Below, piece after piece: positions 2,164-25,288 of a DNA stretch of 64,000 nt. A program made the translations under genes and the position numbers. The DNA lies in NCBI GenBank assembly GCA_937891825.1, contig CALAHN010000088.1:114009-178008 (forward strand), written 5' to 3'. Numbering within the stretch: position 1 is the first letter of the stretch; each line of letters starts with the position of its first letter. This DNA is from an uncultured Alphaproteobacteria bacterium. GTDB lineage: Bacteria; Pseudomonadota; Alphaproteobacteria; Bin95. The notes under the pieces are model-generated. The model was given only the letters and a program-made list of their open reading frames with translations. It ran no database searches and was not told the origin of the DNA.

Positions 2164-2991
2164 ATGCTTCAGTCCTACCCGGTTGCTGTCGAGGATGTCG
2201 TCTATCGGACGATCGACGGGACATCCCTGCTGGCCAGGCTGTACAAGCCGGAAGGCCCCGGACCCTTTCCCGGCGTCGTCGAGGTGCATGGCGGCGCCTG
2301 GACGATGAACGACCGGCTGGCCAATGTGGCGATCCACCAGCCGCTTGCCGCACGGGGAGTCGTGGTCATGGCCATCGACTTCAGAATGCCGTCGGACGTG
2401 CAATACCCGGCGCCATTGGCCGACATAAACTATGCCGTCCGTTGGCTGAAAGCCCATGCCAAAGACTACGGCGCGGCGGCGGACCGGATCGGGCTGCTCG
2501 GCACCTCCAGCGGCGGCCATCAGGCAATGCTGGCGGCGATGCGGCCCGCCGACCCCCGCTACGCCGTCGACCGGCTCGAGGCGGCGCCGGATATGGATGC
2601 GACGGTCGCGTTCATCGTGCTCTGCTGGTCCATCGTCGATCCGCTGGCGCGCTACAAGATGGTGACGAGCAACGGCAACGACCGGCTGGCGGCGGCGCAC
2701 CGAGCCTATTGGCCGGACGAGGCGGCGATGGCCGAGGGCGCGCCGCAATTGATCCTGGAACGCGGCGAACCGGCAGCGTTGCCGCCCGGCATCCTGCTCC
2801 AGGGGACCAATGACGACAACGTGACGCCAGACATGGCCGCCAGGTTCGTCGCGGCCTACAAGGCGGCCGGCGGGTCGATGACGTTGCACGAATTTCCCGG
2901 CGCGCCCCATGCCTTCACCGCGCGCGAGCCTGAAAGCGCGGCGTCCAAGCAGGCGATTGAGAACATCGTGGGGTTCATCGCGGGTTTTTAA
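2164..2991 (+). CDS. Alpha/beta hydrolase (HSL/esterase-like)
   Basis: 275 aa; HGGAW oxyanion-hole motif, GTSSGG nucleophile elbow, C-terminal APHAF His; stop is 3 nt upstream of the next gene. Confidence 0.8.
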   Translation: MLQSYPVAVEDVVYRTIDGTSLLARLYKPEGPGPFPGVVEVHGGAWTMNDRLANVAIHQPLAARGVVVMAIDFRMPSDVQYPAPLADINYAVRWLKAHAKDYGAAADRIGLLGTSSGGHQAMLAAMRPADPRYAVDRLEAAPDMDATVAFIVLCWSIVDPLARYKMVTSNGNDRLAAAHRAYWPDEAAMAEGAPQLILERGEPAALPPGILLQGTNDDNVTPDMAARFVAAYKAAGGSMTLHEFPGAPHAFTAREPESAASKQAIENIVGFIAGF

Positions 2992-2994
2992 CGA

Positions 2995-3297
2995 ATGTCA
3001 GAGATACCCTTCGTGCCGAGTGCGGACGACCCCGTCTGGCGCGCTTTGCAGGCGGCGCTGAAGACCGCCGCGCCCTATAGGCCCTTGATCGAAGCCGACG
3101 CCCCGTTGTTTGAGGGCGGCCTCGACCTGATGTCGCTGGAGCTTCTGGAATTCTTCCTGGCGATCGAGCGGGAATTGAAGGTTCCCATCGCGACGGAGGC
3201 CCTGCCAGAATCGGCGCTGTTGTCGCTCGGCTCGTTGCATGAACATGTCGCCAAACTTCTCCGAGACCGCGAGCGGCTATATAGCCGAGATGGATGA
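2995..3297 (+). CDS. Acyl-carrier-protein-like protein
   Basis: 100 aa; EGGLDLMSLELLEFFLAIERELKVPI resembles the phosphopantetheine attachment region of ACPs, with MSL where DSL is usual. Confidence 0.65.
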   Translation: MSEIPFVPSADDPVWRALQAALKTAAPYRPLIEADAPLFEGGLDLMSLELLEFFLAIERELKVPIATEALPESALLSLGSLHEHVAKLLRDRERLYSRDG

Positions 3298-5332
3298 GGG
3301 GAAGGCTCACAGGGCAGCGTCGCCCCGCGAACGGCGGTTGAAAGCCCGGTCGCTTTACGCAAAACGGGACTTCAATGCGGCGGCGGCGATGCTGATCGAC
3401 GCTTTGGATCATCCCGCCGATCAGGTGTTCAGGGCGCGCTGCCTGGCTGAAGCCGGCAGGGCGGAGACAGCGATAGCGGTCTTGCGGGATGCGATCGCCG
3501 CCTGGCCTGATTTTGGCCGCTCGCATTTGGCGCTCGCAAGATTGCTTGCGGCGGCCGGCGACCTTGCTGGGGCGACACGGGCGGCGGCGGAGGCTTGCCG
3601 ATTGGAGCCAAATGCCCCATCCGGCACGCTGTTTCTGGGCTCGCTGCATCTGCGTGGCGGGGATCCTGAGCGAGCGATCGCCGCTTACGCAGCGGCCGCC
3701 GACTTGGATGCTTCATCTGCCCCAGCCTTTTCGGGGCTCGCATTGGCCTATGAGCGCCTGCAGGATTATGGCAATGCCGTAGTCGCCCTTCGCAAGGCGC
3801 TTGCAGCGAAGCCGGACGATGCGCGCGTCAAGGCGCGCCTGGCGCGGCTGGAGGCGCTCGCGAAAAGGCAGGGCCAAGGCGACGCGTTTGACGACCACTT
3901 CGGGCGCGCCCAGTTATTGCGTGACATGGGCGAATTCAGCGCGGCCGCGGTCGCTGCAGGCAAGGCTGCCGCCGCTGATCCTGATGCGTCGGCGCCGCTC
4001 TTATTGCTCGGTTGGCTTCGACAGAAATTGGGCGCGGTCGATCCTGCGCTCGACGCGTTTACCAGCGCAGCGCACCGCGATCCGGGCTCGATACGGGCGC
4101 ATATCGGCATCGCCGCCGCCCGCCGCCAGCAGAAAGAATATGACGCCGCACTTGCCGCGATCGATGCCGCATTGGCGATTGATCCGGCTGCGGAAGGCGC
4201 GCTTCGACTGCGGGCGACAATTCTCTTCGAAATCGGGCGCGATCATCGAGCGATTGATGCAGCATTTGCTGAAGCGCTCGCGGCGGCTCCCGAGGATGTG
4301 GCGCTCTGGGTCGGCCGTGCCGCCGCTTTCGCAAGCGCCGGCGATTGGCAAGGCGAAGCCGATGCACTGATAATGGCTGCGACCTTGTCGAAGGAGCCCA
4401 AGGCTAAGACGTTGAATCAGGCGCGGCTGGCCAATCGGTATGCCGAGGCGGGCGATATGGCATCCGCCGCCATGTGGGCGCGATGGGCAGCGGGCGAGGC
4501 CGGGACGGCTTTCGCCGCCGCTACATCCGAAGGCGAGATCAATGCAATCTGGAACGCTGCGCAGAAAGTCGATCTGAAACCACTGAACAATCGATTTGAA
4601 CGCGTATTGGCCGAGCGGGCGGCGGCGCATTGGGCCAGCCGTGGCTGCGTCAATGCCGGGGACTGGGCGCGGCGGCGTATGGAATTTGGCGCAATGGCGT
4701 CGCGCTGGACCTGGTTGAGGTCACTTGCTCCGCCGGATGCGGCTGACCCATGGCGCGACTGCATCGATGAAGGCGCCTGGAAAGCGTTCGCCGCTCAGTC
4801 GTCGACGCGGCCAACGCTGCTGATAGCCGGGCACATCGGCCCGACCGTAATCATGCAACACCGCATTGCGCTTCATACGCCAGACGTCTATTGCCTATCG
4901 AGCAATGCGGCATTCTGGTTGTCCCGGGCGCGCCACGACCGTTTCATCTATGCGAGCCGTGCTGGCCAGATCGTGGTCAAGGCTTTCGCAGCGCTTCGTC
5001 AGAACCGGACATTGTTCATAGGAGCGGACGGCGGCATCGGCAAGCGGTCTTTGCCGGGGCGCGTATTCGGGATGGACACGCTTTGGCCAAGCGGCGCGGC
5101 GACCTTGGCCTATAAGACCGGCGCTCGTATCTTCTGCTCCCACGCGATCTGGAGGGGCGATACAATGGCAATTTCCCTGGAGCCCGGTCCCGACCCGGCC
5201 GACGCAGCTTCCGAAGACGTGTGGCTTGCGGATTTCGCGGCCTGGTATGGCGCAATGCTGGAGCGGCTGCTGATCGAAGATCCCGCGAATTACCGGCCGA
5301 ACGCCTACCGCTATTTCAGCATCGATCCATGA
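3239..5332 (+). CDS. TPR-repeat protein with C-terminal LpxL/HtrB-like (LPLAT) acyltransferase domain
   Basis: 697 aa; repeated TPR motifs (AIAAYAAAADLDASSAPAFSGLALAYERLQDYGNAVVALRKAL) followed by IAGHIGPTVIMQH...GADGGIGKRSLPGRVFGMDTLWPSGAATLAYKTGARIFCSHAIWRGDTM...LADFAAWYGAMLERLLIEDPANYRPNAYRYF. An alternative start at 3290 would reduce the overlap with the ACP gene to 8 nt. Confidence 0.7.
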   Translation: MNMSPNFSETASGYIAEMDEGKAHRAASPRERRLKARSLYAKRDFNAAAAMLIDALDHPADQVFRARCLAEAGRAETAIAVLRDAIAAWPDFGRSHLALARLLAAAGDLAGATRAAAEACRLEPNAPSGTLFLGSLHLRGGDPERAIAAYAAAADLDASSAPAFSGLALAYERLQDYGNAVVALRKALAAKPDDARVKARLARLEALAKRQGQGDAFDDHFGRAQLLRDMGEFSAAAVAAGKAAAADPDASAPLLLLGWLRQKLGAVDPALDAFTSAAHRDPGSIRAHIGIAAARRQQKEYDAALAAIDAALAIDPAAEGALRLRATILFEIGRDHRAIDAAFAEALAAAPEDVALWVGRAAAFASAGDWQGEADALIMAATLSKEPKAKTLNQARLANRYAEAGDMASAAMWARWAAGEAGTAFAAATSEGEINAIWNAAQKVDLKPLNNRFERVLAERAAAHWASRGCVNAGDWARRRMEFGAMASRWTWLRSLAPPDAADPWRDCIDEGAWKAFAAQSSTRPTLLIAGHIGPTVIMQHRIALHTPDVYCLSSNAAFWLSRARHDRFIYASRAGQIVVKAFAALRQNRTLFIGADGGIGKRSLPGRVFGMDTLWPSGAATLAYKTGARIFCSHAIWRGDTMAISLEPGPDPADAASEDVWLADFAAWYGAMLERLLIEDPANYRPNAYRYFSIDP

Positions 5333-6666
5333 CGGCGGGCGCGACATTCCTCTGGGAGAGTCTGGCGGCCGAGATGGCGCGTCATGGCGCCCTGACCGCC
5401 TTGGCGAGCGACGACAGGGCGCTTTCCTATGCCGACCTGATCGACCGGGCCATCAAGCGCGGGCGGGAGATCGGAGGATCGTCAGGCGGCGGCGGCCGGT
5501 GGCCTGTCGAGGAAGCCAGCGGCCCCATCGCGACGACGATTGAGGTTCTGGCCGCATGGTCGGTCGGGCGGGCGCCCCTGGTGATCCGCCGGACGATGGC
5601 TGAAGCCGCCAGGGCCGAGACGCTCGACCTGATGTTGGCGGCGCCCCAGGCCGATGCGGAAGGTTTGCTCGGCCGCACATCCGGCACCACGGGCGCGCCG
5701 AAACTGGCGGCCTTGCCCGGCGCCGGCGTCAACCAGTCCATGGCGGCGATCGCGGGGGCCTTTGGGTGGCGGCAAGGGGACAGGCTGCTTGCGGCCACCT
5801 CTCTCTCCTACAGCCTTGGCCTGACGGGCGGGGTTCTGGCGGCGCTGCATGCCGGCGTCACGATCCATGCCATGCGACCTGGCGCGCCGGCGCCGTTGAT
5901 CCTGCAAAAACTCCGCTCCGCCGAGATCACGTTGATCCAGGGGCCGGCGTCCCTGCACCGCATCCTGGCGACGCTCGCCAGGGGCGGGGCATTCCCGGCG
6001 GTGCGCGTCGCTGGACAAGGCGGCGAGGTCTGCACGCCCGCCGCCGCCGCCGCCATGGCGTCGCTTTATCCGAATGCGCGCCGGGTGCAGTACTTCGGCA
6101 TGACCGAAGCTGGGCCGCGTGTCGCCCATATCGATATGGACGATCCGGAATGGCCGCTCGGCGCCATGGGCGCGCCGTTTCCCTTCTTCGACTGGCGCGC
6201 GGTTCCGCTTGCGGACACGCCCTTGAAGCAGCTCTGGCTGAAAGGGCCGACCGTCCTGCTCGGATATCTGGGCGAGGCTGGCTATGTCGGTCTGGACGGC
6301 GAGGGCGGCTTTCTCTCCGGCGACGCGATCGACCTGACGCCGGGCGGCCTGCCGTGCTACCGGGGTCGGATCAATCGCTGTTTCAAGAGCGGCGGCCAGT
6401 GGGTCAATCCGTACACAGTCGAGGCGGCGCTGGCGGGCGAGGCGGGGATCGCGGGCAGCCTCTGCCGGGCAGAGCCGCATGACCTCTTGGGACAAACGCC
6501 CGTCGTCGACATCATCCTCGATGCCGCGACGGACCCGGCAAGCATCGACCTGACGGAGCTTCGCGCACGCCTCGCCCTGGCGCTGGAGCCATTTGAACTC
6601 CCGACCCAGTTTCGCTTCGTCGCCGACCTCGCGCGAACCGACGCCGGCAAGATCGCGCTGGCTTGA
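5329..6666 (+). CDS. AMP-dependent synthetase/ligase (acyl/aryl-adenylate forming)
   Basis: RTSGTTGAPK P-loop, YFGMTEAGP, LSGDAI, YRGRINRCFKSGGQWVNP and C-terminal RTDAGKIALA. ATG at 5329 overlaps the preceding TGA (ATGA); the ORF track's upstream start is probably not used. Confidence 0.8.
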   Translation: MTAGATFLWESLAAEMARHGALTALASDDRALSYADLIDRAIKRGREIGGSSGGGGRWPVEEASGPIATTIEVLAAWSVGRAPLVIRRTMAEAARAETLDLMLAAPQADAEGLLGRTSGTTGAPKLAALPGAGVNQSMAAIAGAFGWRQGDRLLAATSLSYSLGLTGGVLAALHAGVTIHAMRPGAPAPLILQKLRSAEITLIQGPASLHRILATLARGGAFPAVRVAGQGGEVCTPAAAAAMASLYPNARRVQYFGMTEAGPRVAHIDMDDPEWPLGAMGAPFPFFDWRAVPLADTPLKQLWLKGPTVLLGYLGEAGYVGLDGEGGFLSGDAIDLTPGGLPCYRGRINRCFKSGGQWVNPYTVEAALAGEAGIAGSLCRAEPHDLLGQTPVVDIILDAATDPASIDLTELRARLALALEPFELPTQFRFVADLARTDAGKIALA

Positions 6667-6678
6667 GCGCAGGCCGCG

Positions 6679-8325
6679 TCAGTTCGCGACGTTGCGCTTC
6701 GGCTTGAAGCTGTCGGGGTCGGCGACGGACCAAGGCACGTCGTAAGCCGTTCCTTGAGGATCGGCGAGCAATTGGCCGGATTTCAGAAAGGTATAAAGCT
6801 CATCTGCCGGCGACAGCACATAGGGGCTGAGGCGGTGGTAGAGGTTATGCGGCTCCAGTTCCGAAGGATGATCGAGGCCGGCGGCCGCGACGATTTCCTT
6901 CAGGGCGCGCAAGGTGTGGGCATGGAACCGGCGCACGCGCTCCGCTTTTTCCGGGATGACGAGGGCGCGCTGGCGCATGGGGTCCTGGGTCGCGACGCCG
7001 ACCGGGCACCCGCCTGTGTGGCACTTCAGGGAATGGATGCAGCCGACCGTGAACATGAAGGCTCGCGCGGCATTGGTCCAATCGGCGCCGATGGCCGCAT
7101 TCGACGCGATCGCGAACGCGCTTGTCGCCTTGCCGGCCGCGCCGATGCGCACCCGGTCCTTGAGGCCGGCCCCGACCAGGGCATTGCGGGTCAGGATCAG
7201 GCCCTCGCGGAGAGGCATGCCGACATGATCGACGAATTCCTGGGGAGCGGCGCCCGTGCCGCCTTCGGCCCCATCGACGACGATGAAGTCCAGCGTCACG
7301 CCCATCTCCAGCATCGCCTTGGTCAGCGCGAAGACCTCATGGGGCTTGCCGACGCAGAACTTCGCGCCGATGGGCTTGCCGCCGCTCAATTCCCGGAGCC
7401 GAGCCGCCCAGGCGATCAATTCTCGCGGCGTCGAGAATGTCGTGTGATAGGCAGGCGAGATGCAATCCTCGCCGATGGGGATGCCGCGGGTGGCTGCGAT
7501 CTCTGCCGTCACCTTGGCGCCGGGCAACATGCCGCCATGGCCGGGCTTGGCGCCCTGACTGATCTTGATCTCGATCATCTTGACCTGGTCGTTCTGGGCG
7601 TTGGCCTGGAACGCGCCTTCGTCGAACGATCCGTCACGGTTGCGGCAGCCGAAATAGCCTGAGCCGATCTCCCAGACGAGGTCGCCGCCATGCTTGCGGT
7701 GATAGGGGCTGATCGAGCCTTCGCCGGTGTCATGATAGAAGCGGCCGAGCTTGGCTCCGAGATTGAGCGCTTCTATCGCATTGCCGCTGAGCGAGCCGAA
7801 ACTCATGGCCGAAATGTTGAAGATCGAGCTTGAATAGGGCTGAGTGCAATCTGGGCCGCCGACATCGACGCGGAGGTCCCCGGCGCTGAGGGGCTTCGGC
7901 GCCATCGATTGGGTGATAAAGGCATACTCGCTTGAGCCGACGTCCAGCGCCGTGCCGAAGGGCACTGCATCTTCCTCGCCCTTGGCCCGGGCATAGACGA
8001 CCGAGCGCGACGCGCGGTCGATCGGCCGGCCGTCCCGGTCGCTCTCGACGATATACTGGCGGAGATAGGGGCGCAGTTCCTCAAAGATCCAGCGGGCCCG
8101 GCCGATGATCGGATAGTTCCGCATCAAGCTGTGGCGGGTTTGGAAATAGTCGTAGGCGCCAAGCCCCGTCAGGCCGCCAAACCCCGCGGCCGGCAAGATC
8201 GCGCCATCCCACCAGAAAGCCGAAATCAGGCTGACGATCAGCCCAACCGCCGCGCCCCCCAAAATGGCGAACCGCCAGAAATATGGCGGCACGCGCATAC
8301 GGCCAAGATCGCTATCGACAGCCAA
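6679..8325 (-). CDS. FMN-binding glutamate synthase family protein (GltB-like domain)
   Basis: 548 aa; FNISAMSFGSLSGNAIEALNLGAKLG, YHTTFSTPRELIAW, VVDGAEGGTGAAPQEFVDHVGMPL and CHTGGCPVGVATQDP motifs. Confidence 0.88.
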   Translation of the reverse strand: MAVDSDLGRMRVPPYFWRFAILGGAAVGLIVSLISAFWWDGAILPAAGFGGLTGLGAYDYFQTRHSLMRNYPIIGRARWIFEELRPYLRQYIVESDRDGRPIDRASRSVVYARAKGEEDAVPFGTALDVGSSEYAFITQSMAPKPLSAGDLRVDVGGPDCTQPYSSSIFNISAMSFGSLSGNAIEALNLGAKLGRFYHDTGEGSISPYHRKHGGDLVWEIGSGYFGCRNRDGSFDEGAFQANAQNDQVKMIEIKISQGAKPGHGGMLPGAKVTAEIAATRGIPIGEDCISPAYHTTFSTPRELIAWAARLRELSGGKPIGAKFCVGKPHEVFALTKAMLEMGVTLDFIVVDGAEGGTGAAPQEFVDHVGMPLREGLILTRNALVGAGLKDRVRIGAAGKATSAFAIASNAAIGADWTNAARAFMFTVGCIHSLKCHTGGCPVGVATQDPMRQRALVIPEKAERVRRFHAHTLRALKEIVAAAGLDHPSELEPHNLYHRLSPYVLSPADELYTFLKSGQLLADPQGTAYDVPWSVADPDSFKPKRNVAN

Positions 8326-19335: not shown

Positions 19336-20652
19336 TCAGTCGTGGCGGCCGCCGCGGCCGACGCCGTCATAGGCGAAGCCAAGCGCGCGCGCCGCGCCCG
19401 GACTGTAGAGATTGCGGAAATCGGCCAGGCGCGGCGTCCGCATCTGGGCTTTCAGGCGTTCGAGATCGATCGCGCGGAACTCGTTCCATTCCGTCAGGAT
19501 CAGAACGCAGTCGGCGCGCTCCGCCGCCTCATAGGGGTTGGCTGCCCAGGCGACGCCGGGCAGCAACTGGCGCGCTTCGCCGTGGGCCTGGGGATCGTAG
19601 GCGACGACCTCTGCGCCGGCCGCCAGCAGCGCCGGCAGGATATCCAGGGCCGGCGCTTCGCGCATATCGTCGGTGTTGGCCTTGAAGGTGACGCCAAAGG
19701 CCGCGATGCGCTGGCCACTGACTGAGCCGCCGCACAACGCGACGACTTTCCGGGCCATGGTCTCGCGCCGGGCCCGATTCGCCCCGACGACCGCATCGAC
19801 GATGGCGGACGGTCGTCCGACGCCGCGCGCCGTCTCCGCCAGAGCGGCGGTATCCTTGGGGAAACAGGACCCGCCATAGCCAGGACCCGGCTGCAGGAAC
19901 CGCGCGCCGATGCGCTCGTCCAGGCCCATCCCCCGCGCGATGCCTTCGATGTCGGCGCCGACGACTTCCGCGATATCCGCCATTTCGTTGATGAAGGCGA
20001 TCTTCGTCGCGAGGAAGGCGTTCGAGGCGTACTTGATCAGTTCGGCCGTTTCGAGATCGACCAGCACCAACCGGGATTTCGATAGCCGGAGCGGCCGGTA
20101 GAGCGCCTTCAGAAGCGCGTTGGCATTGTCGTTCTCGACGCCGATCACGACTCTGTCCGGGCGCATGAAATCTTCGATCGCCGAGCCTTCGCGCAGAAAT
20201 TCCGGGTTGGATGCGACGACGAACCCAGCGTCGGGGCGGATAGTTTTCAGGATGCGGGCGACCTCCCGCCCGGTGCCGACTGGCACCGTCGACTTGGTGA
20301 CGATGACAGCGCCGTCCGGCGCCGCGGCGGCGATCTCGGCCGCGGCGGCGTAGACATAGGTCAGGTCGGCATGGCCGTCGCCGCGCCGGGACGGCGTGCC
20401 GACGGCGATAAAAACGGCGTCAGCGTCTTTGACGGCGGCCGGGAGATCGGTGGTGAACGCAAGCCGCCCGGCCCCGACATTCGACTCGATCATGGCGTCA
20501 AGGCCGGGCTCGAAAATCGGCGCTTTCCCGGTCTTGAGCGTGGCGATGCGCGCTGCGTCCTTGTCGACGCAAATGACATCGACGCCGAATTCGGCAAAGC
20601 AGGCGCCGGAGACCAGCCCGACATATCCCGCCCCGATCATCGCGATGCGCAT
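19336..20652 (-). CDS. ugd: UDP-glucose 6-dehydrogenase
   Basis: MRIAMIGAGYVGLVSGACFAEFG...VFIAVGTPSRRGDGHADLTYVYAAA...NPEFLREGSAIEDFMRPDRVVIG...GPGYGGSCFPKDTAAL. Confidence 0.92.
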   Translation of the reverse strand: MRIAMIGAGYVGLVSGACFAEFGVDVICVDKDAARIATLKTGKAPIFEPGLDAMIESNVGAGRLAFTTDLPAAVKDADAVFIAVGTPSRRGDGHADLTYVYAAAAEIAAAAPDGAVIVTKSTVPVGTGREVARILKTIRPDAGFVVASNPEFLREGSAIEDFMRPDRVVIGVENDNANALLKALYRPLRLSKSRLVLVDLETAELIKYASNAFLATKIAFINEMADIAEVVGADIEGIARGMGLDERIGARFLQPGPGYGGSCFPKDTAALAETARGVGRPSAIVDAVVGANRARRETMARKVVALCGGSVSGQRIAAFGVTFKANTDDMREAPALDILPALLAAGAEVVAYDPQAHGEARQLLPGVAWAANPYEAAERADCVLILTEWNEFRAIDLERLKAQMRTPRLADFRNLYSPGAARALGFAYDGVGRGGRHD

Positions 20653-20711
20653 GCGTCGGCTGCTCCTCTTCGATCAATCGGATTGGGGTCTGACGGATTA
20701 GTGCGCCAAGA

Positions 20712-21734
20712 TCAAGCAGCCGCTTCCCGCATCGCCCAGCGATAGGCGTCGCCGACGATATCGAGGATGTCGGCGTGGGCAGGACGCCAGCCAAGCGCCG
20801 CCTTGACCGCGCTGGCGTCGGCGACCAATTCCGGCGGATCGCCTGCCCGGCGCGGCGCCGATCGGGCGCGCGCAGGACGACCGGCAACGCTTGCCGCAGC
20901 GGCGACGATCTCCTTCACCGAGTAACCGCGGCCGACGCCCAGATTGAACGCAGCGCTTCCGCCGCCGCCCAGCAAGCGCCGCAGCGCCAGCACATGCGCC
21001 GCCGCCAGATCGGCCACATGGACATAGTCCCGGAGCGGCGTTCCATCGGGCGTTGGATAATCCTCGCCGAAAATCTGCAGGGTAAAGTCGCCGGGCATCG
21101 CGGCGCGAATCGCAAGGGGGATGAGATGCGTTTCGGGGCTGTGGCGTTCGCCGATCGTCGCTTCGGGCTCGGCGCCGGCCGCATTGAAGTAGCGGAGCGC
21201 AATCGTGCGCAGGCCATGGGCGCTTTCGGCGTCCTGAAACAATCTTTCGGCCGCGAGCTTGCTGAAGCCATAGGGATTGATCGGCTGGCGCGGCGCCGAT
21301 TCGGGTATCGGCGAAACGCCCGGCGCGCCATAGACCGCGCAGGTGCTGGAGAAGATCAACGACCGCACATCCGTCGCTGCGGCCGCTTGCACGATGGCGA
21401 CCGCGCCGCCGATGTTCACATCGAAATAAAGCGCCGGCGCCTGGAGGCTCTCCGCGACTTCCGCTTTGGCGGCGAAGTGGAGAATGGCCTGAGCCGAATG
21501 GGTCCGGATGGCGGTTTCCAGGGCCTCGGCGTTCCGGACATCGCCTTCGATCGCCGGCCCCCAGCGGACAAAGTCACGGTGGCCGCGAGAAAAATCATCG
21601 TAGACGACGGGTTGGAAGCCTGCTTCGGCGAGGGCCTTGCACGCATGGGCGCCGACATACCCTGCCCCGCCCGTGACCAACACGTTCACCCTGTCGCCAG
21701 CCAAACGACTGCCTCCCAACCCGACGCCCGCCAA
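20712..21734 (-). CDS. galE: UDP-glucose 4-epimerase
   Basis: NVLVTGGAGYVGAHACKALAEAGFQPVVYDDFSRG...SSTCAVYGAP...NPYGFSKLAAERL; the native start may be GTG at 21689. Confidence 0.9.
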   Translation of the reverse strand: MAGVGLGGSRLAGDRVNVLVTGGAGYVGAHACKALAEAGFQPVVYDDFSRGHRDFVRWGPAIEGDVRNAEALETAIRTHSAQAILHFAAKAEVAESLQAPALYFDVNIGGAVAIVQAAAATDVRSLIFSSTCAVYGAPGVSPIPESAPRQPINPYGFSKLAAERLFQDAESAHGLRTIALRYFNAAGAEPEATIGERHSPETHLIPLAIRAAMPGDFTLQIFGEDYPTPDGTPLRDYVHVADLAAAHVLALRRLLGGGGSAAFNLGVGRGYSVKEIVAAAASVAGRPARARSAPRRAGDPPELVADASAVKAALGWRPAHADILDIVGDAYRWAMREAAA

Positions 21735-21753
21735 TGTTTGCGAAATCGCAGCG

Positions 21754-22482
21754 TCAGTAAGCGTTCTTGCGCTCGAACGGGACCGAGAGGGTCTTCAGCA
21801 GGCACACGATATCCGTCCAGGGCGTCCAATGCGCCAGGTAGTGGCGCTGCAGGACCAGGCGGTCCCGGTAGCTGCCGCTGTTGCGGAACCGCACCTGCCA
21901 GGGACCGGTGATGCCGGGACGTTCGGCCAGATAATAGCGGAACTGGTCGCCCCAATGCTTTTCTTCGCCAAGCGCGATCGGACCCGCGCCGACAAGGCTC
22001 ATCTCGCCGACCAGGACGTTCCAGAGCTGCGGCAGTTCGTCGAGGCTGGTGCGGCGCAGAATCCGGCCGATCGCCGTGACCCGCGGGTCATCCTTCAATT
22101 TGGCGGTCGCATTCCATTCGGCCAAGGCCTTGGGATCGCTTTGCAGCAAGGCGTCCAGGCGCGCGTCGGCGTCTACCGACATCGTCCGGAATTTCCAGCA
22201 CTTGAACGTGGCGCCGTCCTGCCCCCAACGGGTGTGGCCGTAAAATATCGGCCGGCCGCTTTGCAGCATGACCAGCCCCATCACGATCAAGAACAGCGGC
22301 GCGAGCGCGACCAGCAGAACGGCCGCCCCAAGCGGGTCGATAAACGATTTCCACAAGCCGCGAACGATGTCGCGGCGCGAACGCGCCCTCGCAGGCCGCT
22401 GCATTGGCCACAGCGGCATTCTGATGAACGCCTCGAACAAAGGGCTGAGAGCGACCAGCCCCGACTTAGCGATCCGCTCCAT
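21754..22482 (-). CDS. Bacterial sugar transferase (undecaprenyl-phosphate hexose-1-P transferase type)
   Basis: PLGAAVLLVALAPLFLIVMGLVMLQSGRPIFYGHTRWGQDGATFKCWKFRTMSVDADARL...GRILRRTSLDELPQLWNVLVGEMSLVGAGPI. Confidence 0.9.
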   Translation of the reverse strand: MERIAKSGLVALSPLFEAFIRMPLWPMQRPARARSRRDIVRGLWKSFIDPLGAAVLLVALAPLFLIVMGLVMLQSGRPIFYGHTRWGQDGATFKCWKFRTMSVDADARLDALLQSDPKALAEWNATAKLKDDPRVTAIGRILRRTSLDELPQLWNVLVGEMSLVGAGPIALGEEKHWGDQFRYYLAERPGITGPWQVRFRNSGSYRDRLVLQRHYLAHWTPWTDIVCLLKTLSVPFERKNAY

Positions 22483-22663
22483 GAGCTACCTGCCCCCTAG
22501 CGTACACGCGACAACAAAACGGCATTTCCGACTAATCCGGCTACGCCAAGTATCCCCCGTCGGTCGTCCAATGGCGGAAGCCATCGAGCGCTTGCCGGCT
22601 GAAGGTACTAGTTTTTTAACGCATTCGGCTGATTTCGCCAAACCTTACTTAGGATCAAATGGC

Positions 22664-23917
22664 TTAATTATCAGTAATGCCGAGCGCAACTCGGCCATTC
22701 GCGCGCCGCAGAGCTGGTTCGACCGCGTCCAAATGACGCTCGATGGTATGCGGCCGCTTCCAATAGCGCCGATGCGCCGCGGCGCCCATGCGGCGCGCGA
22801 CGTCCGTCGCCATAAGCGTGCGCATCGCCGCCGCCAGCGCATCGACGCTTTGACTGGCGACATGCAAGCCGGTTTCGCCGTCAGCCACATATTCAACGCC
22901 GGCGCAATTGTCGCTGACGATGACCGGAACGCCTTGCGCGAGGGCTTCGAGCACGGTCAGCGGCTGGCATTCGTACCAGATGGACGGAAAGACGAGCGCG
23001 CGCGCCTGCCGCATCCGCGCCGAAACGGCCTCAGGCGTCAGCCATCCGGTGAACTCCGCGGTCGGCGCGCATTGCCGCAGGATGGGGCCTAGCTCGCCGT
23101 CGCCGACGAAGGCGATCGGCGCGCCGGCGTCATGGGCGGCGGCTGCGGCCAGATCCGCCCCCTTCTCCCGGGAAAACCGGCCGACGAACAGGAACGGCGC
23201 ATCGTCGGCGATCGCCGCGGGGCCCTGGTCTTCGACGTCGATCGGGTTGGGCGCGTAGACCTCCGACTCGGGCGGCGGCAGCCAGGCCGACAGGACGCGC
23301 TTCTGCAGATCGCTGATCGCCACGCGATGTTTCAGATTGCGGCGGAAGCGTCCCGGGCCGTTCAGGGCGGCCTGCCGGACGACGCGGAACAATTTGTGGC
23401 GGTAAGCGCGCGCGTCGCAATTTGCCGTGATGCAGGCGAACGACATCGGCCGACGCTGACAGTTCTCGCCGGCCGGGTAGTCAAAGAACGCGCCATTCGG
23501 GCAGGCCGCAAAATATTCGTGCATATGGTAGAGGGTCGGGATGCCGCTCGCCGCGATCGCCTGCTGGCAGGCAGGCGACATCGCTTTCGACCAGCCGTGC
23601 TGGTAGATCACCGTCGTCTTCGGATCGTGGCCGTCGAGCAGCCGCCTCAGGGCCGCCGCCGCTTTCCGGTTCCATATGCCGCGGACGGCAGCGCTCAGGG
23701 CATTCGCATCGCCAAGCAGGTCGGGCTGATCGAGGACGACGGTCTTGACCCCGCCCGCCGCAAGCCGCGGATCGGCAGGGCCGACAGGGGCGAAGTAAGC
23801 CACCCGGTGGCCGCGCGCCGCCAGCCCGAGCGCGCCGGCGATCGCGACTTTCGCCGCGCCGCCGTTCACAAACCCGTAGTCATAAGTGACGACGATATCC
23901 AACTTGCCGTCGGTCAT
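22664..23917 (-). CDS. Glycosyltransferase family 4 protein
   Basis: 417 aa; FLFVGRFSREKGADLAAAAAHDAGAPIAFVGDGELGP...RALVFPSIWYECQPLTVLEALAQGVPVIVSDNCAG. Confidence 0.88.
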   Translation of the reverse strand: MTDGKLDIVVTYDYGFVNGGAAKVAIAGALGLAARGHRVAYFAPVGPADPRLAAGGVKTVVLDQPDLLGDANALSAAVRGIWNRKAAAALRRLLDGHDPKTTVIYQHGWSKAMSPACQQAIAASGIPTLYHMHEYFAACPNGAFFDYPAGENCQRRPMSFACITANCDARAYRHKLFRVVRQAALNGPGRFRRNLKHRVAISDLQKRVLSAWLPPPESEVYAPNPIDVEDQGPAAIADDAPFLFVGRFSREKGADLAAAAAHDAGAPIAFVGDGELGPILRQCAPTAEFTGWLTPEAVSARMRQARALVFPSIWYECQPLTVLEALAQGVPVIVSDNCAGVEYVADGETGLHVASQSVDALAAAMRTLMATDVARRMGAAAHRRYWKRPHTIERHLDAVEPALRRANGRVALGITDN

Positions 23918-24124: not shown

Positions 24125-25288
24125 ATGACCGCGCCGGGCGAAATTCCTTGCCCTTCCCTCTGGAGCGCCCAAGCCATGCCCTTCCCCGCCCCACATGAAC
24201 CGGCGCCGCACTTCATCTGCGAGGCGTCGAATAATCCGCGCTTCAATTTCACGACCGTTGGCGGCCGATATATCTTGCTGACGTTCTTTGGATCGGCGGC
24301 GGAACCGGGCATGGCGAAGGTGTTGGCGGACGCAGCGGCCGAGCCGCTGTTCGACGATGTTCAGGCGTCCTTCTTCGGGATTTCGATCGACCCGGACGAC
24401 AAGGCCATGGAACGGGTCAAGCCAAAGACCATCGGCTACCGCTTCTTCTGGGATTTCGATCAGGCCATTTCAAAGCTCTATGGGGCCATTGAAGGCGAAG
24501 GCCGGGCGGACGGCTCTGTCGATTTCAAGCCGGTCTCGATCCTCATCGATCCGATGATGCGGATCATGGGCCATCAACCGATTGACGATCCGGCCACCCA
24601 TATCCAGCGGCTCGCGGATTTTCTGCGCAAGCTGCCCGCGATCGGCGCGCCGGTCGCCGCCCAGGGCCATGCGCCGGTTCTCGTGATTCCACGGATCTTC
24701 GAGCCGGATTTCTGCAAGCAGCTCATCGGCCTTTATAACCAGCATGGCGGCGAGGATTCGGGCTTCATGCGCGAGATCGACGGCAAGACCGTCGGCATCG
24801 TCGACTACAGCCACAAGCGGCGGCGGGACTACATCATCGACGATCAGAAGCTGATCCAGGCCTGCCAGGCGCGCATTCGCCGGCGCCTGGCGCCGGAAAT
24901 CAAAAAAGCCTTCCAGTTCGAACCGACCCGGATGGAGCGCTACATCGTCGCCTGCTACGATTCCGGCGAGGGCGGTTACTTCCGGCCGCATCGCGACAAT
25001 ACGACAAAAGGCACTGCTCACAGGAAGTTCGCAGTGACGCTCAATCTGAATGCTGAGGATTACGATGGCGGCTACCTGCGTTTCCCGGAATTCGGGCCGC
25101 ATCTCTTCAAGGCGCCGACCGGCGGCGCCGTCGTGTTCTCATGCTCGCTGCTCCATGAAGCGCTTCCTGTCGTCAAGGGCACGCGCTATGTTTTCTTGCC
25201 CTTCCTGTATGACGACGCGGGCGCGGAGCTTCGGGAGAAGAATAATGCCTATCTCGCGGAAAATGTCGTTAATTATCAACGCGGCTGA
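24125..25288 (+). CDS. Peroxiredoxin-like domain fused to 2OG-Fe(II) oxygenase (prolyl-4-hydroxylase-like)
   Basis: N-terminal thioredoxin-fold-like region (PAPHFICEASNNPRFNFTTVGGRYILLTFFGSAAEPGM...FFGISIDPDD); C-terminal YFRPHRDNTT (HxD), LHEALPV and GTRYVF motifs. Start may be 24176, which has a better ribosome-binding site. Confidence 0.8.
   Translation: MTAPGEIPCPSLWSAQAMPFPAPHEPAPHFICEASNNPRFNFTTVGGRYILLTFFGSAAEPGMAKVLADAAAEPLFDDVQASFFGISIDPDDKAMERVKPKTIGYRFFWDFDQAISKLYGAIEGEGRADGSVDFKPVSILIDPMMRIMGHQPIDDPATHIQRLADFLRKLPAIGAPVAAQGHAPVLVIPRIFEPDFCKQLIGLYNQHGGEDSGFMREIDGKTVGIVDYSHKRRRDYIIDDQKLIQACQARIRRRLAPEIKKAFQFEPTRMERYIVACYDSGEGGYFRPHRDNTTKGTAHRKFAVTLNLNAEDYDGGYLRFPEFGPHLFKAPTGGAVVFSCSLLHEALPVVKGTRYVFLPFLYDDAGAELREKNNAYLAENVVNYQRG

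Follow-up and report, generated by a model that had tools for sequence, protein, structure and literature searches.

A carrier, a TPR-LPLAT transferase and a short adenylate-forming ligase form a candidate acyl-activation and transfer cassette in an uncultured alphaproteobacterium

In a 64,000-nucleotide stretch of DNA from an uncultured Alphaproteobacteria bacterium of the Bin95 lineage (GCA_937891825.1, contig CALAHN010000088.1, positions 114,009 to 178,008; hereafter the window), three overlapping genes encode a small carrier protein, a fusion of tetratricopeptide repeats (TPR) with an LPLAT acyltransferase domain, and a short adenylate-forming ligase. We propose, with a probability of about 0.5, that the three constitute one acyl-activation and transfer cassette that would acylate a soluble polar acceptor. 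We arrive at this reading because the genes overlap, the transferase scores 71 bits against a held-out profile and falls in a clade with 100/98 support, its catalytic His and Asp are kept, and the related enzyme VexE depends on acyl carrier protein (ACP). It draws further on the ApeE-like character of the carrier, the precedent of a carrier-ligase pair in another genome (G328), the sugar-linked settings of other TPR-LPLATs and the lack of a membrane segment in the transferase. The genes and sites in question are as follows.

2164..2991, + strand: BD-FAE/HSL-type esterase, 275 aa, with nucleophile motif GTSSGG and oxyanion motif HGGAW (Pfam)
2995..3297, + strand: ACP-like carrier, 100 aa, nearest to ApeE-type carriers (Pfam, NCBIfam, pairwise scores)
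3133..3135, + strand: codon of carrier Ser47, the presumed phosphopantetheine site, in LMSLEL (ACP alignment)
3239..5332, + strand: TPR-LPLAT fusion, 697 aa, with an alternative start at 3290
3323..4519, + strand: TPR superhelix, about residues 29-427 (Pfam, AlphaFold)
4559..5329, + strand: C-terminal part with the LPLAT domain, residues 441-697 (profiles, tree)
4832..4834, + strand: codon of predicted catalytic His532, in GHIGPTV (alignments)
5027..5029, + strand: codon of predicted catalytic Asp597, in GADGGIG, by spacing the position of VexE D532 (alignments)
5329..6666, + strand: short adenylate-forming ligase, 445 aa (Pfam, core motifs)

The initial annotation had described four same-strand genes that are 3 nt apart or overlap, and the coordinates of the open reading frames (ORFs; 2164-2991, 2995-3297, 3239-5332 and 5329-6666, all on the + strand) agree with it. 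The esterase stop precedes the ATG of the ACP gene by 3 nt. The ACP and TPR genes overlap by 59 nt if the latter begins at ATG 3239 and by 8 nt if it begins at ATG 3290 (residue 18), and the TPR-gene stop shares an ATGA with the ligase start at 5329. The frames of carrier, TPR-LPLAT and ligase are all open. Since the flanking genes, an amidase (684-2084) and an FMN-glutamate-synthase-like gene (6679-8325), lie on the minus strand, the unit is bounded on both sides. Such tight coupling is direct sequence evidence of co-expression, not of a common chemistry. No ketosynthase (KS), ketoreductase (KR) or other fatty acid synthase (FAS) or polyketide synthase gene adjoins the cluster, as the annotation had also observed, and no capsule exporter adjoins the TPR-LPLAT gene.

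The C-terminal part of the 3239-5332 product had been called an LpxL/HtrB-like LPLAT. Homology to LPLATs was borne out; the family label was not, for the domain lies nearer to the soluble VexE-type TPR-LPLATs (PMC9597891) and no membrane segment that could anchor it was found in the protein. Pfam detected many TPRs (TPR_16, 4.4e-17) and a match to Lip_A_acyltrans (PF03279) below the gathering score (15.7 vs 22.3 bits). A single-sequence search matched a mycobacterial PIM acyltransferase (E 0.003), a profile search matched the LPLAT part to LpxM (5knk), and residues 277-686 aligned to the NCBIfam VexE model NF011721 with E 0.017 and 13.3 bits, short of the model cut-off of 1200 bits. Against the held-out profile, which comprised seven other TPR-LPLAT/VexE-like domains and excluded the window protein, the window C-terminus scored 71 bits, compared with 43 for the best canonical LpxL row and 3.3 for the best of 200 shuffles; hhalign against the same profile gave 98.7% across 215 columns. 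In a tree for which the frames of the LpxL rows had been verified by homology, the TPR-LPLAT/VexE-like proteins, including the window protein, stood apart from LpxL/HtrB with support 100/98. The window protein paired with a Marinibacterium plasmid protein annotated as VexE (94/78) and lay on a long branch outside the five-row VexE-type clade; because the branches are long, its exact place within the group is uncertain. Judged by sequence, the C-terminus is an LPLAT-type acyltransferase homologue, and the transferase is a divergent member of the group typified by VexE, a paralogue and not VexE itself. As the window protein groups with VexE-like proteins, its combination of TPR and LPLAT is an architecture already known.

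In building the glycolipid anchor of the Vi capsule (Vi antigen), VexE acylates UDP-GlcNAc in an ACP-dependent reaction, as a C-6 beta-hydroxyacyltransferase; loss of its His abolishes activity and loss of its Asp strongly lowers it, the Achromobacter enzyme is soluble, and the domain combination was reported to be without structurally characterised precedent (PMC9597891). Like VexE, the window protein joins an N-terminal TPR superhelix to a C-terminal LPLAT domain, has no membrane anchor and lacks the acid of the H(X)4D/E motif (HIGPTV, with Val in sixth position). His532 and Asp597 are invariant across a six-row alignment with VexE-like proteins, and the dyad keeps near-identical spacing, 65 in the window protein vs 66 in VexE (H466, D532). 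In contrast to true VexE-like proteins, which score 440-675 bits against the VexE model, the window protein reaches about 13; it falls outside the VexE-type clade, lacks a capsule ABC-export locus and has its own carrier and ligase genes adjoining. LpxL/HtrB proteins (PF03279) share the LPLAT superfamily with the window protein, consistent with its match to LpxM, whereas the window protein has neither the H(X)4D/E acid nor the hydrophobic N-terminal segment, carries a TPR fusion and belongs to a separate clade. Two ordinary LpxL-family LPLATs sit elsewhere in the genome.

We also examined the surroundings of other TPR-LPLATs. Their genes occur in capsule ABC-export loci of Alteraurantiacibacter (L027), G753 (L051) and Caballeronia (L080), directly 3' of three glycosyltransferase genes on Mesorhizobium plasmids (one record has an ACP gene too, about 11 kb upstream), in a Marinibacterium region that also holds glycosyltransferase and sulfotransferase genes, and in a P450/methyltransferase cluster of genome G462. 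In our analysis the common thread is the acylation of sugars or polar metabolites, and for this reason we favour a sugar nucleotide or a small hydroxylated molecule over lipid A as the acceptor. Two of these settings deserve separate description. The Mesorhizobium loci (L079 3790-12801, L081 1-17565, L082 1949-14774) hold large glycosyltransferases (TPR plus GT4 in the one checked) with glmS nearby, and these plasmid regions of root-nodule symbionts may represent an acylated-glycan locus. In G462 (L099 1-6945, L100 4789-10673), a VexE-like TPR-LPLAT of 654 aa, with 88 bits to the VexE model, neighbours small methyltransferase genes as well as P450-like and, by eye, radical-SAM-like ones. A second contig bears a parallel copy that comes with a carbamoyltransferase, and the whole looks like an undescribed biosynthetic cluster.

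The assignment of the last gene to the adenylate-forming ligases stands. P-loop, YxxTE, hinge and C-terminal lysine motifs were all found, with the core motifs intact (RTSGTTGAPK, YFGMTEAG, GRINRCFKSGG and DAGKIAL); AMP-binding (PF00501) matched at 1.2e-24 with 87.3 bits vs a cut-off of 29.9, and the C-terminal domain (PF13193) reached 24.4 of the 24.5 bits needed. A FAAL-specific insertion is a trait of fatty acyl-AMP ligases (PMC11837247). Among 386 Alphaproteobacteria there was no close relative; the best matches were 27-32% identical, two of them likewise short (425 and 444 aa). Viral contigs contained no relative either, the six-row alignment there being too diverse for use. Short ligases separated from full-length ones in one tree, a grouping that was gone once ApeH was added. 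In G328 a short (425 aa) ligase gene lies directly 3' of an ACP gene, as in the window, whereas a reductase takes the place of the TPR-LPLAT and ligase identity is about 30%; the pair is a precedent for pairing, not proof of orthology. In that locus (L098 7838-10204) the genes for an SDR, an ACP and a short AMP-ligase follow one another in tandem, a second ACP-ligase pair with no FAS genes seen adjoining; genes nearby resemble ones with sugar or surface-glycan roles.

The small protein, which had been described as carrier-like, is by its sequence a weak but real ACP of ApeE-like type. ACP models of Pfam and NCBIfam match it weakly, its Ser47 region aligns ungapped with known ACPs, and its score of 17.8 bits against ApeE exceeds the 8.2 that the best of 500 shuffles reaches. 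Modelled alone with AlphaFold, it folded poorly (pLDDT 51).

ApeE, ApeD and ApeH are the carrier, LPLAT-family acyltransferase and direct acyl-ACP synthetase of the aryl polyene operon (PMC8253772), the same three roles as in the window trio. This likeness of roles, and a carrier nearest to ApeE, would fit a trio left over from an aryl-polyene-type cluster after loss of the ketosynthases. We regard such an origin as highly improbable. No KS remnant adjoins the trio, nor do the ketoreductase, dehydratases and exporter of aryl polyene clusters, and the other two proteins are not close relatives of their counterparts. ApeH, tried as an orthologue of the ligase, was rejected at just 12 bits and on a very long branch, whereas ordinary ligases give 69-88 bits; between the TPR-LPLAT and ApeD, which carries a strong hydrophobic segment, there is no significant match. 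The trio is reminiscent of ApeE/ApeD/ApeH and not a member of the aryl polyene system.

From gene structure, family membership and conserved catalytic residues, all directly observed, we infer how the cassette would load its carrier and what its donor, acceptor and product would be. The ligase, with its intact motifs, would adenylate a carboxylic acid and hand the acyl group to the neighbouring carrier, as gene coupling and the ApeH/ACP and G328 precedents suggest. The TPR-LPLAT, presumably cytosolic, would take the acyl group from the carrier and, via His532 and Asp597, esterify a hydroxyl of a sugar nucleotide or another soluble polar acceptor, by analogy with the action of VexE on UDP-GlcNAc. 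As was proposed for VexE, the amphipathic product may be guided by the TPR superhelix. More tentatively, we suggest that a self-contained ligase, a dedicated carrier and a soluble TPR-LPLAT could together attach an acid that is not a housekeeping one, such as an aryl or exogenous acid, to a sugar nucleotide or small molecule; a reaction of VexE type would then run independently of fatty acid synthesis and of capsule export.

Several points weigh against the cassette. The whole collection was scanned once, with two short patterns, and samples of some hundreds of genomes were searched besides; the trio was found in no second genome among 4 congeners, 9 family members and 386 sampled Alphaproteobacteria; the co-conservation of the gene set on which the initial annotation had staked its proposal was thus not seen in the genomes searched. 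No acceptor-making gene adjoins the cluster. The carrier scores 16.9 bits for PP-binding (PF00550), below the gathering score of 20.8, and its DSL motif is altered to MSL; this change of Asp to Met before Ser47 could affect phosphopantetheinylation and is the weakest link. From an alignment of two rows AlphaFold produced a good model of the TPRs and an unreliable one of the LPLAT part, so that the claim of an LPLAT fold rests on sequence profiles. Finally, the substrate of the ligase is not readable from its sequence.

The LPLAT part itself had no match in the congeners, the family members or the other relatives searched, and solely distant matches in the 386 Alphaproteobacteria and in 399 phylum members. 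The one scan of genome contigs, with a three-row LPLAT profile, found Alteraurantiacibacter alone, where a VexE-like TPR-LPLAT lies in a capsule locus. In G001 and G003, a conserved block of a glutamate-synthase-like gene and transporter genes ends not at the cluster but at an 800-residue membrane-transporter-like ORF (sodium/proton-antiporter-like by eye), so the segment varies even within the genus. Carrier and ligase beside a TPR-LPLAT are a new arrangement within what was searchable, on the evidence of a single genome.

With no co-conservation found and the carrier motif altered, adjacency might be incidental: the TPR-LPLAT would then be an envelope or capsule-anchor acyltransferase working on housekeeping acyl-ACP, while carrier and ligase serve another reaction or decay. 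In vitro, VexE works with acyl-ACP prepared from E. coli ACP (PMC9597891), and two Poly_export genes located elsewhere in the genome fit this view as well. We nevertheless consider it unlikely, given that both junctions overlap, that all three frames are open with the ligase motifs intact, and that the capsule exporter is not adjoining.

The annotation had also counted the hydrolase as a part of the system, and this was not supported. It is an ordinary esterase by its Pfam matches (BD-FAE 2.6e-27, Abhydrolase_3 2.9e-19), and homologues 58-65% identical to it are encoded by three congeners, by one family member and by a further alphaproteobacterium. The stretches around these five contain no homologue of carrier, LPLAT or amidase; their neighbours include glyoxalase, acyl-CoA dehydrogenase and luciferase-like monooxygenase genes, and the TPR-LPLAT is absent from the four genus and family members. 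Because the homologues occur in five genomes with no carrier gene behind them, the esterase is separable, probably outside the core unit and at most co-transcribed, and is probably a catabolic enzyme that chances to head the operon. Its 3-nt coupling and the catabolic flanks, a homogentisate-dioxygenase-like ORF at 3-683 of the window and the amidase, could instead point to a four-gene catabolic or detoxifying operon, in which an acid freed by the esterase would be activated by the ligase and then parked by the transferase. This seems improbable to us, since the homologous esterases lack the carrier gene, and a carrier and a TPR-LPLAT are unexpected in catabolism.

Two further systems were considered for the cluster. 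An exosortase-A system was rejected, as neither the AMP-ligase nor the TPR-protein model of NCBIfam matched at cut-off, and for a defence system PADLOC gave nothing but a weak match of the TPR region to PrimPol. Elsewhere in the window, surface-polysaccharide genes lie at 19336-23917, about 13 kb off the cluster (UDP-glucose dehydrogenase, GalE, a WbaP-type sugar transferase and a GT4 glycosyltransferase); that they could supply the acceptor is a speculative link. A single protein at 24125-25285 combines an AhpC/TSA-like N-terminal part with a 2OG-Fe(II) oxygenase C-terminal part, a fusion that looks unusual.

Our results suggest that TPR-LPLAT enzymes are a wider group, found in capsule loci, in rhizobial plasmid glycosyltransferase loci, in a P450/methyltransferase cluster and, here, with a carrier and an acid-activating enzyme of their own. 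If the proposal is true, the cassette would show how TPR-LPLATs can be fed with acyl groups from outside fatty acid synthesis, and it offers a compact system for learning what these enzymes acylate.

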